DNA of 64,000 nt from Rhizobium sp. C4 (GTDB taxonomy: Bacteria > Pseudomonadota > Alphaproteobacteria > Rhizobiales > Rhizobiaceae). A model generated the notes under the pieces. The model did no database searches, was not told where the DNA came from, and saw only the letters and a list, made by a program, of their open reading frames with translations. The translations under genes and the position numbers were made by a program. Position 1 is the stretch's first letter. Every line of letters begins with the position of its first letter. The stretch covers positions 124,001 through 188,000 of the forward strand of contig NZ_JAJNCX010000004.1 of the NCBI RefSeq assembly GCF_021026315.1, in the 5' to 3' direction. Shown here in pieces: positions 29,953 to 33,670 of this stretch.

Positions 29953-30092
29953 GGCCCGTTGGAGGATTACATCGCTTATTGCCGGGGCGATTTTCGAAAG
30001 GCCCGCAATCTCTGCTTGACTTGGCTCGAATTCGACTAAACATTTTATTTTGAGAATGCATCACAAGCATTGGGAAAACAGGGAGTAATGAC

Positions 30093-30401
30093 ATGACCGA
30101 CTATCTTCCAGATGTCCGCAAGTATGACGCCAAGGCCGATGAAGCTGTTGTGGCGAAGATCGTGAAGCATCTCGGCATTGCATTGCGCAACCGTGACTCC
30201 TCGCTGGTTTCCGCCACTGACAAGTCCGAGCTCGACCGCGTCGTGCAGAGCTGGTGCGGCAAGAAGCTCGGCGTGACGGGCGAGGCGGCCGAAAAGGCCG
30301 TGGCCTCCGTGGCCACCGCGATGAAGGCCGACCATTCGAAGTCGCGCGTCACCTTCTACTATCTGGTGGCCAAGGAACTCGGCAAGCTCGGCGACCTCTG
30401 A
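30093..30401 (+). CDS. DUF2853 family protein
   Basis: A 102-residue helical protein beginning MTDYLPDVRKYDAKADEAVV with a conserved FYYLVAKELGKL ending, matching DUF2853. Function unknown; probably cytoplasmic. It precedes thyA by 105 bases. Confidence 0.85.
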   Translation: MTDYLPDVRKYDAKADEAVVAKIVKHLGIALRNRDSSLVSATDKSELDRVVQSWCGKKLGVTGEAAEKAVASVATAMKADHSKSRVTFYYLVAKELGKLGDL

Positions 30402-30506
30402 AGCCTTTCCACTGGATTGGCAATTCCGCGCGGCGTTTCCGCCTTGGAAGCGCCGCTGCTTGGCTTTACACTGCGGCCCGTCTTGAGAGAAGGGAATCAG
30501 CGGGCC

Positions 30507-31076
30507 ATGAAGCAATATCTCGACTTCCTCCGCCATGTGAAGGAAACCGGCGCCGACCGCGGTGACCGCACGGGCACGGGCACGCGCTCCGTCTTCGGTT
30601 ACCAGATGCGCTTCGACCTGTCGGAAGGCTTTCCTGTCCTGACCACCAAGAAACTGCATCTGAAGTCGATCATCCATGAGCTCCTGTGGTTCCTGAAAGG
30701 CGAGACGAATATCGCCTATCTGCACGAACATGGCGTCAGCATCTGGGACGAGTGGGCCGATGAAAACGGCGAACTTGGCCCGGTCTATGGCTCGCAATGG
30801 CGTTCCTGGCCTGCGCCGGATGGGCGCAAGATCGACCAGATCGCGCTGCTGATCGAAAGCATCAAGACTAATCCCAATTCCCGCCGCCACATCGTCTCGG
30901 CCTGGAACCCGGCGGAAGTGGACGAGATGGCGCTGCCGCCCTGCCACTGCCTGTTCCAGTTCTATGTTTCGGACGGCAAGCTCTCCTGCCAGCTCTATCA
31001 GCGCTCGGCCGACATCTTCCTCGGCGTGCGGACATTTTCCGACATCGAAACGGTACCTTTCCGTCGAGCGGCCTGA
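30507..31076 (+). pseudogene. thyA: Resident thymidylate synthase, 5' fragment (interrupted)
   Basis: Codons 1-174 of an E. coli-type thymidylate synthase, including the folate and dUMP sites and catalytic Cys146 ([11 protein letters not shown]), then FLGV at 31017-31028. From 31029 the frame runs into foreign sequence, adds 15 unrelated residues and stops. The missing 90 codons resume at 32744. Joined, the parts give exactly 264 residues, the same as E. coli ThyA, so nothing was lost at the junction. The fragment lacks the [10 protein letters not shown] helix and C-terminal lid and should be inactive alone. Confidence 0.92.
31035..31046 (+). repeat. Left terminal inverted repeat of the thyA element
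   Basis: TTTTCCGACATC; perfect complement of the right-end repeat. Six bases, CGGACA, separate it from the last native thyA codon, and CGGACA partly repeats the inner CCGACA. Confidence 0.85.
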
Positions 31077-31117
31077 AAGTAGCGCCGTTTCGCAGTTGCT
31101 CAAATGGTACCGGTACC
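31052..31117. repeat. Subterminal GGTACC motifs
   Basis: GGTACC occurs at 31052, 31106 and 31112, the last two forming the 12-bp palindrome GGTACCGGTACC. They may be binding sites for a recombinase or for the element's own small protein. Confidence 0.4.
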
Positions 31118-31171
31118 GCAATAAAATTGCGCTAAGCCTCGCTTAACGGTTTTTTGAGGGTCATTAGGGTA

Positions 31172-31200
31172 TTGCACAGTTCGGTAACGTTGCGCACTAT
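31172..31200 (+). promoter_or_regulatory. Promoter of the element's thymidylate synthase
   Basis: TTGCAC (31172-31177) and CACTAT (31195-31200) have a 17-base spacer; the start codon is 26 bases beyond. This lets the cargo gene be expressed independently of the broken thyA. Confidence 0.55.
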
Positions 31201-31226
31201 CGATTACGTCAACAGCGGACGACAAC

Positions 31227-32138
31227 ATGACCAGGCATCCCGAATTTCAGTATCTCGACATCCTCAGAACTCTCGTGGAACACGGGGATCGGCGTAAGGA
31301 TAGGACCGGCACCGGCACTCTTGCCACGTTCGGTTCAATGATGCGCTTCGACATGTCGGACGGTACATTTCCGGTTTACACCACAAAGAGAGTTTACTGG
31401 AAAACTGCGGTCAAGGAGATGCTGTGGTTTCTAACTGGGCAGACCAATATTCGTACGCTGTTGGAGGAAAACGTCAGGATTTGGACAGATTGGCCTTTGG
31501 CGAACTATCGCTCGGCAACCGGTTCAAATCTCTCCCAGGAGGAGTTCGAGGCAAAGATACTCGCAGATGCTGATTTCGCTTCTGAATGGGGCGATTTAGG
31601 TCCGGTGTACGGCAAGCAGTGGCGTCGCTGGCAAGCTGCCGATGGAACCGAATATGACCAAGTGGCCGACGTTATTCTGCTTCTCCGTAATGATCCGGGC
31701 AGCCGACGCATGCTTTTTCATGCCTGGAATGTTCCTGAACTGAAAGCGATGGCTCTTTCGCCGTGTCACATGACCTACCAGTTCTTTGTGGCTGGGATCG
31801 GAGACGAGGTGCCGCGACTTTCTCTAATGGTCACCCAGCGCTCAAGCGACATGGGATTGGGGAACCCGTTCAATGTCGCGCAACAAGCGGCGTTACTAGC
31901 CATGATCGCCCAGCAGGTTGACATGCAGCCCGGTGAATTGATCTGGACTGGTGGGGATGTCCATCTTTATCTCGACCATATGCACCTGGCCGAAACGGTT
32001 CTTTCCAGAGAACCGCGACCGTTCCCCAAGCTCCATTTTGCTCGGAAGCCCGATGGGATCGATGACTACAAGATCGAAGATTTCGTGGTGACCGGGTACG
32101 ATCCTCACCCCGCAATCGAAGCGCCCGTCGCAGTCTAA
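31227..32138 (+). CDS. Thymidylate synthase, long form, carried by the element
   Basis: A 303-residue intact enzyme (dUMP to dTMP using methylene-tetrahydrofolate). It has KDRTGTGT, the TNIRTLLEENVRIW helix, catalytic Cys180 in LSPCHMTYQFF, QRSSDMGLGNPFNVAQ and the C-terminal GYDPHPAIEAPVAV. Compared with the resident ThyA it has an extra stretch of about 35 residues at 90-125, like the longer Firmicute and phage enzymes, and is clearly a distinct lineage rather than a duplicate. It presumably supplies all dTMP synthesis, since the resident gene is split and no thyX is seen here. Confidence 0.93.
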   Translation: MTRHPEFQYLDILRTLVEHGDRRKDRTGTGTLATFGSMMRFDMSDGTFPVYTTKRVYWKTAVKEMLWFLTGQTNIRTLLEENVRIWTDWPLANYRSATGSNLSQEEFEAKILADADFASEWGDLGPVYGKQWRRWQAADGTEYDQVADVILLLRNDPGSRRMLFHAWNVPELKAMALSPCHMTYQFFVAGIGDEVPRLSLMVTQRSSDMGLGNPFNVAQQAALLAMIAQQVDMQPGELIWTGGDVHLYLDHMHLAETVLSREPRPFPKLHFARKPDGIDDYKIEDFVVTGYDPHPAIEAPVAV

Positions 32139-32202
32139 TTTTTGAAATCCAATGCTATTTTTGGCGGAGTCGCACCAACGGCTCTGGTGGAGTCTTGTTG
32201 CT

Positions 32203-32583
32203 GTGAATCAATCGCTAACAGTAGGTGATCGCTTAGCAGTATTGCTGGCTGAACTATATGCAAAAGGCACCATACCTCGAAACAGGCATGGGCACGTCGC
32301 GAGAGATCAGCTTGCTGCCATGCTCGATGTTGGGAAGTCAGCTCTGACACCGCACCTTCCGTTAGTAAAATCCTATGAAGAGAAGATCGGCATTTTGCAT
32401 CCTATCGATGCGGCTATCCCGCGTATGAAGGCTGTCCTTGCAGATTTGATTGATAGTGGAACGCTCAAGACACGCGACGGTAAGGTTGACCGGAAGCAAA
32501 TAGGAGATTTGGCGGGTGTCAACTCGGTCACCTCGCTTAATCGCCGACAAGGGGACGGCCGATGGCCGTCACATTATTTTTAG
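32203..32583 (+). CDS. Small two-module putative DNA-binding protein of the element
   Basis: A 126-residue protein from a GTG start with GGTGGAG upstream (an ATG at 32152 is in frame but lacks a site). It contains two related modules of about 35 residues: LLAELYAKGTIPRNRHGHVA with RDQLAAMLDVGKSAL, and VLADLIDSGTLKTRDGKVD with RKQIGDLAGVNSV. Each looks like a short helix-turn-helix unit. The last residues are encoded by a terminator-like hairpin, so the gene may be 3'-truncated. Base composition is poorer in G+C than its surroundings. Function unknown; similar modules occur in accessory proteins of recombinase-driven elements (my inference). Confidence 0.65.
   Translation: MNQSLTVGDRLAVLLAELYAKGTIPRNRHGHVARDQLAAMLDVGKSALTPHLPLVKSYEEKIGILHPIDAAIPRMKAVLADLIDSGTLKTRDGKVDRKQIGDLAGVNSVTSLNRRQGDGRWPSHYF
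32554..32579 (+). terminator. Hairpin-T-tract at the end of the small element gene
   Basis: GACGGCC, loop GAT, GGCCGTC, then ACATTATTTTT. It overlaps the last codons of the gene at 32203. Confidence 0.65.
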
Positions 32584-32637
32584 AAAGCCTGAATGATCGC
32601 CTTAGCTTTGATCCATACCGCTCATTCATGCTTTCTA
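32581..32637. repeat. Long imperfect hairpin inside the element
   Basis: TAGAAAGCCTGAATGA and TCATTCATGCTTTCTA pair at 15 of 16 positions with a 25-base loop. It could be an internal recombination site, the scar of a deletion, or an RNA structure. Confidence 0.6.
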
Positions 32638-32647
32638 TAGGAGCGGA

Positions 32648-32676
32648 ATCCGCCTATCGGCGGATGCTTTTTGTTT
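32648..32676 (+). terminator. Rho-independent terminator near the right end of the element
   Basis: ATCCGCC, loop TATC, GGCGGAT, then GCTTTTTGTTT. It should insulate the downstream thyA fragment and folA from element transcription. Confidence 0.7.
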
Positions 32677-32713
32677 AGGAAGTTGTAAGGGTAAAGGAGG
32701 AACGTGGTACAGA

Positions 32714-33016
32714 ATGATGAAAAAAACACATGATGTCGGAAAACCCTTCAACATCGCGTCCTATGCGCTGCTGACGATGATGGTCGCGCAGGTCACGGGC
32801 CTTCGCCCCGGCGATTTCGTCCACACATTCGGCGACGCGCATCTCTATCACAACCATTTCGAACAGGCCGAAACGCAGCTGAAGCGCGACCCGAAGCCGC
32901 TGCCCTTCATGAAGATCAATCCCGACGTGAAGGACATCTTCTCGTTCAAGTTCGAGGATTTCGAGCTGGTGGGCTATGAGGCGGACGCAACGATCAAGGC
33001 GCCGATCGCGGTATGA
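32714..33016 (+). pseudogene. thyA: Resident thymidylate synthase, 3' fragment
   Basis: Ten element-encoded residues ([10 protein letters not shown]) are followed from 32744 by native codons 175-264 ([10 protein letters not shown] to IKAPIAV). AAAGGAGG at 32693-32700 lies 13 bases before the ATG, so the fragment may still be translated. Its stop overlaps the folA start (ATGA), so translation through it may couple to folA. It lacks the catalytic cysteine and cannot be active alone. Confidence 0.9.
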
Positions 33017-33528
33017 TAAAGCCGCTGATCTCCATGATTGCCGCCGTGGCGCGCAATGGCGTCATCGGCCGCGAGAACGATCTACCCTGGCACATGTCCA
33101 CGGACCTGAAGCGGTTCAAGGCCATGACGATGGGCAAGCCGCTCATCATCGGGCGGAAGAACCTCGAGAGTTTCCCGCGACTTCTGCCGGGGCGGCCGCA
33201 TGTGGTGATCACGCGGGACACGACCTATGCCCGCGAGGGTGTGCACGTCGTGCATTCTTTCGATGAGGCAATTTCAACGGCGTCGGACCTTGCAGACGAG
33301 ACGGGTGCAGACGAAATCTGCATCGCGGGTGGCGGCGAGATCTACAGGCTGGGCATGCCGGTCGCGGATGTTCTTCACATCACCCATGTCGAGGCGGATA
33401 TCGCGGGCGATACAACGTTCCCCGAAATCGATCCTGCGGTGTGGGATGCGGTGGAGGTCGGACGCATGGAGTCGGGCGAAAAGGATGACCATTCGGCCCG
33501 TTTCGTTACCTATACACGCCGAAAGTAG
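33013..33528 (+). CDS. folA: Dihydrofolate reductase
   Basis: A 171-residue enzyme that reduces dihydrofolate to tetrahydrofolate with NADPH, regenerating the cofactor consumed by thymidylate synthase. Recognisable parts are [20 protein letters not shown] with acidic Asp31 at the folate site, GRKNLESFP, and the [15 protein letters not shown] loop. It overlaps the 3' end of thyA by 4 bases, the standard thyA-folA operon, so the insertion upstream must affect its transcription. Read-through, or a promoter after the terminator at 32676, would be needed. Confidence 0.95.
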
Positions 33529-33670
33529 ACCTTTCCTGCGGCAATTTGCATCTGCGGGATGCGAAACATGACAGGCCGCATTGAAACAGTCTTCCTCGAT
33601 ACCTATAACCTGTCACCATAAGACGAGGGTGGGGGGAAACGTCTCTTGCCCGTAACAGCAAGAGGACTTG

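Follow-up and report, generated by a model that had tools for sequence, protein, structure and literature searches.

The resident thymidylate synthase gene, thyA, of Rhizobium sp. C4 is split between codons 174 and 175 by a 1,715-bp insert (31029-32743) that carries a thymidylate synthase (TS) gene of its own. We analysed it within a window of 64,000 nucleotides (assembly GCF_021026315.1, contig NZ_JAJNCX010000004.1, positions 124,001 to 188,000), to which all coordinates refer. The insert very probably belongs to a family of site-specific genomic islands that use this codon junction as landing site and whose hosts survive by means of the imported replacement TS; judging from the genomes in which it was recognised, the hosts of the family would be Rhizobiales and some other Proteobacteria.

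The 5' part of thyA (codons 1-174; 30507..31028, plus strand; PF00303, E 1.9e-85) and its 3' part (codons 175-264 and the stop; 32744..33016, plus strand; PF00303, E 5.4e-36) give exactly 264 codons when joined in silico. Against the intact thyA of four same-genus genomes without the insert, the joined flanks align without gaps over 795 bp, at DNA identities of 90.3, 90.9, 89.3 and 78.6%; these empty sites bear out the claim of an earlier note on this DNA that thyA was cut with neither loss nor duplication. Among six same-genus genomes, the window's included, the site is uninterrupted in four and split in two, the window's and that of a sister species (G014). The latter harbors a full island at the identical thyA site, with a TS merely 71% identical to that of the window, which implies at least two insertions or turnovers in the genus, or the replacement of one element by another. 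The open frame of the 5' part continues into the insert as far as 31076, and the stop of the 3' part overlaps the folA start at 33013. For the 5' part, the ratio of nonsynonymous to synonymous substitution (dN/dS) was 0.022-0.037 against the three nearest intact relatives, whose own pairwise values were 0.015-0.018, and 0.09 against L121; with the halves so nearly undecayed, the split in the window's genome looks recent. A minus-strand open frame of 358 aa (30045-31121; noted at 30782-31148) overlaps thyA and is probably a chance frame in G+C-rich DNA.

The ends of the insert are asymmetric. A 6-bp spacer, CGGACA (31029..31034), which varies among elements, separates codon 174 from the left terminal inverted repeat, TTTTCCGACATC (31035..31046), and the right terminal inverted repeat, GATGTCGGAAAA (32732..32743), directly adjoins the hexamer CCCTTC (32744..32749), identified as thyA's own from empty sites and end comparison (all on the plus strand). 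The two repeats are perfect over 12 bp, in agreement with the insert length and inverted ends first described, to which the spacer left of the left repeat is now added. The insert has a G+C content of 51.5%, compared with 59.6% in thyA and 61.8% in the whole window.

The imported TS comprises 303 aa (31227..32138, plus strand; PF00303, E 1.3e-104) with Cys180 present and, as had been stated, is distinct from the resident ThyA (41-55% identity by segment). No other intact TS was found in the window's own genome, and a search for ThyX (PF02511) gave no match there, the same search being positive in 6/14 control genomes. Furthermore, in five comparisons of this TS the nonsynonymous difference (0.15-0.20) lay far below the near-saturated synonymous one (0.74-0.91), which argues for purifying selection on this enzyme. 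Since the distance from the thyA break to the TS start is at most about 0.8 kb in all but one of the 19 elements, and the TS of the window is the sole intact one in its genome, the proposal that a carried replacement makes the insertion survivable is reinforced.

The 19 elements were assembled as follows. In a bacterial genome scan with the window TS, in which the best 80 of 155 relatives were examined, 12 had a fragment of 264-type thyA ending at codon 174, 135-412 bp upstream of the TS; two further relatives, both from Sphingomonas, have a split gene that itself belongs to the 303-type. Four more elements (G604, G635, G362 and the decayed G920) came from recombinase searches. L048, where the quartet described below is present and the contig end cuts the element, was excluded from the count. 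The codon 174/175 junction is thus shared by the window and 18 other genomes, full members with recombinases among them. TTTTCC directly follows the 6-bp spacer in 17/19 left ends; in L071, L076, G635, G362 and G604 the junction was located by this motif, in agreement with the end of the thyA match. GGAAAA is present at all 13 right ends that were tabulated, of which four had been located by this motif, already seen beforehand. CCNTTC comes next in 12 and is missing only from the remnant L014; G604 has GCCTTC behind GGAAAA. Where the earlier note had allowed for a chance rearrangement without conserved ends, the relatives presented the opposite, a conserved junction with conserved ends. The window copy has the codon 174/175 break, the TTTTCC.../...GGAAAA ends beyond the spacer and the TS inside the left end, and lacks the group of four recombination genes (quartet) found behind the TS in full members.

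In relatives, this quartet is operon-like and constant in order: a large protein that we call BIG (888-1,390 aa; two frames in L015), a recombinase termed YRa (about 650-700 aa, with a cysteine-rich tail), a small protein of about 180 aa, and the tyrosine recombinase YRb (458-584 aa), which in L022 matches Phage_integrase of Pfam at E 5e-11. YRa is regarded as a tyrosine recombinase because its alignment has conserved TARR and HxLR...Y motifs, read by eye, and two of its relatives match a tyrosine recombinase model weakly (E 0.014 and 0.076); for BIG, a structure model points to a probable recombinase fold. Full-length YRa matches were obtained in five genomes (2/297 of an order sample and 3/388 of a family sample), all with a split thyA and a TS at that locus, the thyA 3' part of G635 sitting on a different contig. 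A phylum sample (n = 398) returned one of these five again and the partial G920. Nine other family genomes gave partial, weaker matches (E 6e-31 to 6e-8), and neither TS nor thyA pieces were seen in the stretches fetched around them, three of which were on contigs shorter than 7 kb.

Distantly related quartets occur in other Rhizobiaceae genomes: in L153 and L156 all four profiles were matched with no TS or thyA pieces nearby, and in L154, L157, L158 and L159 the quartet was found in part. The quartets of L153 and L156 probably represent other element families with other targets; among ten proteins tested beside distant quartets none was a recognisable replacement gene, two from G920 having no Pfam match. 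Quartet-protein matches beside the standalone TS of L036, L037, L047 and L084 (E 0.001-0.002) were too weak and were judged to be chance.

The window copy retains a single trace of this machinery. A 143-aa open reading frame (ORF; 32152..32583, plus strand) matches the BIG profile at E 1e-18, the profile having been built without the window's row; it has no Pfam match, and what had been taken for a small putative DNA-binding protein is instead a fragment of BIG. No quartet profile had a match at E 1e-5 elsewhere in the window, and YRa had none in the window's own genome. Hence the earlier statement that the insert encodes no mobility enzyme stands for this copy, in which no recombinase gene was found, and does not extend to the family, whose recombinases appear to have been lost here. 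Since just a fragment of the first quartet protein is left, the window insert appears to be a deletion derivative, an internally deleted, non-autonomous member of the island family with the small ORF as its remnant. Both of its ends are intact, so that it might still be mobilized by recombinases supplied from elsewhere. Between the 143-aa ORF and the right end there are two G+C-rich hairpins, each followed by a T-rich tail (32554-32570 and 32648-32665); from their match to the consensus, they may stop TS transcription within the insert.

Element lengths, derived from the coordinates of the thyA halves, vary widely, from 1.7 kb in the window and 2.2 kb in L073 to 26.6 kb in L035, 39.0 kb in L022, 52 kb in L021, 90 kb in G362 and 129 kb in L033. 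The L073 element, from Sagittula salina, has a TS and no quartet match and is thus a second mini-element. Cargo was looked at in part in three elements. L035 (L134-L135) has HamA and HamB, of the Hachiman system, together with MzaB-E; L022 (L131-L132) has a PRTase protein matching retron III-A models, as well as an acyl-homoserine lactone synthase, proteases and an ORC/CDC6-like protein; and G920 (L162) has an Argonaute-like protein. The sampled cargo is therefore predicted to include anti-phage defence genes.

The hexamers at the two ends suggest how the islands may move. The right hexamer is the host's own, and the left one is variable across elements. In 7/19 elements the left hexamer reads CCNTTC, resembling the thyA site, and in two of the six such elements with both ends known its synonymous base differs from the host's (CCC/CCA in L021, CCC/CCG in L022); such a foreign base fits a thyA-to-thyA transfer that brings the left hexamer along. 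The remaining 12 left hexamers, CGGACA of the window included, do not resemble a thyA site, five of them differing from CCNTTC at one position. The mode of excision, the activity of the TS and the transfer of the element are inferred. The recombinases would insert a circular form across the 6-bp spacer, so that the right end keeps the host hexamer and the left end receives the incoming one; the insertion would inactivate the resident thyA, and the cell would live on the imported TS. Departure may not restore the target, as is reported for strand-biased circularizing integrative elements (SEs) and some GInts in the relevant sections of PMC10214605, and if no empty site is regenerated, insertion into thyA would be one-way and the TS a condition of survival; the import is accordingly proposed to be obligatory where leaving does not restore the target. 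Addiction of the host to the element is plausible. The window copy would then have lost its recombinases through internal deletion, and in other lineages the old thyA pieces would have eroded, completing the replacement of an essential gene.

Such erosion is suggested by 32 loci where a 303-type TS is not adjoined by the quartet. In 19 of these, the fetched stretch shows the TS flanked upstream by an SspB-like or DUF2853 gene and downstream by folA, and in four (L014, L018, L027 and L029; L018 weak, E 0.004) a scrap of 264-type thyA persists upstream, L014 having in addition kept the 3' part of thyA together with the right terminal repeat and a fragment of BIG. Of the 32 TS-alone genomes, 19 were searched for native-type thyA, and none had any beyond a single scrap of 37 residues; the 303-type TS is evidently enough for these hosts. 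The relatives can accordingly be arranged as a putative decay series, from full island to mini-element, to thyA scraps and to the imported TS alone. In some lineages the imported TS appears to be the only one left, and these data suggest that a frequent later outcome is the loss of the old thyA with the new TS kept.

With regard to the origin of the imported enzyme, a phage source was considered and rejected: the best phage TS is 49% identical and all 3,745 phage records fall below 60%, which leaves bacterial and island TS as the nearer kin of the window TS. No plasmid record covered 80% of the insert, BIG had no plasmid match and YRa had merely partial ones. The best plasmid match of the insert, on plasmid pRlX5 of Rhizobium leguminosarum (L126, 11935-13505), is a TS 58% identical to that of the window followed by a folA-like gene, a separate pair without element genes. 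In a quick tree of 87 TS, the window TS has a long branch and 61 rows are standalone 303-type TS from many Proteobacteria, which in distant taxa may simply be native; the TS of L014 is sister to an element TS (support 97). At the residues matching the insertion site, LGV|PF occurs in the alignment in 0/18 element TS versus 5/61 standalone TS, and alanine replaces proline in 8/18 versus 9/61, the rows not being independent. Self-protection of the replacement TS against insertion is hence only suggestive, and these residues may equally be a mere subfamily trait.

Several observations weigh against the interpretation of these elements as one family that lands in thyA with its own TS. YRa, the first recombinase, has no Pfam match, and the structure model of BIG has a predicted TM-score (pTM) of 0.42, with weak likeness to XerH and other tyrosine recombinases (best E 9e-3). 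A class sample yielded no YRa match (0/279), an empty result that alone shows little, and the exact right-junction pattern was present in 4/394 family genomes, the window's included, so the element is rare. The left ends of L015 and L035 deviate from TTTTCC, and the right end of G920 is decayed. In G604 (L129, L176, L177; contig C23), the exception to the short distance between TS and break, about 35 kb separate the two; its left element end lies at the thyA break, its TS and quartet are at the right side, and it may have arisen by rearrangement or by the merging of two elements. Moreover, the TS of elements are intermixed with standalone TS in the tree, with 15 label changes, at least nine of them forced by well-supported branches, and the element label is not clustered (100/500 shuffles as low). 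Elements may therefore also pick up local TS, which leaves the direction of exchange unsettled.

Other explanations account for part of the same data. If the insert were an ordinary island that is cut out and pasted in, excision would restore thyA precisely, the TS would cover the integrated state and nothing would be irreversible. The perfect thyA formed by the joined flanks, the resident hexamer retained at the right end in 12/13 tabulated cases, and the regeneration of empty sites by ordinary islands and integrative and conjugative elements, as described in parts of PMC10214605, are all in line with this. However, in most elements the left hexamer is not the same as the right one, so that a simple exchange could leave an altered hexamer; the multi-recombinase architecture resembles that of SEs and GInts, which form no empty site or do so only in some cases (PMC10214605, in the sections concerned); and an island whose sole risk lay in leaving would have no need of a TS. 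We regard this explanation as rather unlikely. It is highly improbable that the thyA halves form a working two-piece enzyme with the second TS as mere cargo: both halves keep open frames, the 3' part is preceded by an in-frame start and the dN/dS of the 5' part is low, but a recent split would also give low values (intact pairs show 0.015-0.018), native-type thyA is gone from every TS-alone genome searched, and in the tmk precedent discussed below the split halves gave no working enzyme (PMC10653934, in the portion reporting it).

That the 303-type TS is a native paralogue beside which an unrelated island landed is slightly more improbable still. This would fit its standalone occurrence in many Proteobacteria, yet the window TS lies between the element's own ends, close to the break as in nearly all other elements, and a thyA query found a single match, and none to the 303-type gene, in each same-genus genome whose thyA is intact (four genomes). 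The draft status of the assembly (50 contigs) would leave room for a misassembly or local rearrangement, which we consider extremely unlikely, because the junction and ends recur in 18 other genomes, four empty sites are available and the insert is internal to a 348-kb contig; the low identity by segment between the two TS also argues against a local duplicate. Finally, the gene td of phage T4 is a well-known case of an intron in a TS gene. A self-splicing intron in thyA, for which td would be the precedent, is no more credible than a misassembly, as positions 30000-33600 had no Rfam match at the gathering threshold, to an intron or any other known RNA, an intact TS lies inside, and relatives reach 129 kb and carry recombinases.

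The site-specific island family with an imported TS, which we continue to favor, was set apart from known systems by their descriptions. Its closest precedent in strategy, apparently a different element, is the dNMPK-bearing genomic island that interrupts tmk in Pseudomonas putida KT2440 and its relatives, in which the imported enzyme was shown to take over (PMC10653934). In the parts of that source bearing on it, the tmk island likewise splits an essential nucleotide gene whose function the carried enzyme assumes, conserved recombinase genes flank the carried gene, size varies and some strains retain the imported gene alone. In contrast, the tmk replacement is a non-orthologous phage-like kinase, whereas that of thyA islands is a TS of the same Pfam family, and tmk island hosts are mainly gammaproteobacteria, unlike those of thyA islands.

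By description, the recombination module resembles those of SE, GInt and Tn554 (PMC10214605 and PMC5385486, in the sections on these elements). SEs also have two tyrosine recombinases, a recombinase-fold protein and a small protein, as well as terminal inverted repeats and a 6-bp spacer of which one copy is resident and the other brought in (PMC10214605). However, their order is intA-tfp-intB-srap, compared with large protein, recombinase, small protein and recombinase in thyA islands, and the brought-in hexamer is core-distal in SEs and core-proximal, thus mirrored, in thyA islands; the pertinent sections place SEs only in Gammaproteobacteria and describe no replacement gene (PMC10214605). 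GInt (ginABCD) is similar in its three integrase-like proteins and small protein near one end, the cargo behind and its site specificity, but its small gene is fourth and not third, the third integrase-like protein of thyA islands is weakly supported, and GInt borders are 10-11 nt imperfect direct repeats, against a direct repeat of at most 6 bp between inverted arms in thyA islands (PMC5385486, in the part describing GInt). The terms 'thyA', 'thymidylate' and 'tmk' are absent from the full text of that paper. As given in the passages concerned of PMC10214605, ginC-ginD blocks were not found in Alphaproteobacteria, SEs and Tn554-related elements leave footprints of resident and brought-in hexamers, and for Tn554-related elements neither a large fourth protein nor a replacement gene is described. 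No NCBIfam match named for the Gamma-Mobile-Trio was obtained with eight quartet proteins of L022/L015 and nine of L041/L048/L053, in a library whose content in this respect is unconfirmed, and the VPA1267 family gave one sub-threshold quartet-protein match (19.5 bits versus a cut-off of 90). The author of the earlier note knew of no description of this element; in agreement, no report of a thyA-splitting island was found among the papers listed from the open full-text literature, subscription journals being mostly outside the search. The element family appears in no paper searched, although its strategy is already known from the tmk island.

A more far-reaching reading, which we hold tentatively and with somewhat more doubt than belief, is that of undescribed multi-recombinase islands which can land in an essential gene solely because they carry a diverged replacement TS free of the resident-type site, whose departure leaves the target unrestored and the hosts dependent on the import, which bear anti-phage genes in the sampled members and have many times overwritten native thyA across Rhizobiales, and in which a start codon at the right end keeps the thyA stump translated ahead of folA. 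In the window, the right end (32714..32743, plus strand) contains ATG codons that share the frame of the thyA 3' part, a putative restart, and AAAGGAGG lies upstream of the in-frame start (32660-32743). An in-frame start codon with no intervening stop precedes the stump in all 14 right ends examined, and eight of them have an ATG at a distance of no more than 45 bases; in the other two frames such a start is present in 3/14 and 10/14, the latter mostly ATGs within the terminal repeat, and the right ends are homologous, so these counts are not independent. A translated stump may protect the expression of folA, although the latter is 46-622 bases away in three relatives.

In brief, our data point to a one-step replacement of an essential enzyme gene, in which an island disrupts the existing copy and delivers its successor, adding to the tmk precedent an independent target and a replacement enzyme of the same family. 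As there are carriers among named public genomes and the decay series is graded, the idea of an essential gene as landing site becomes testable. The quartet might also be put to use for site-specific integration in Rhizobiales. The sampled members would be defence islands, linking phage defence with the turnover of a core gene.

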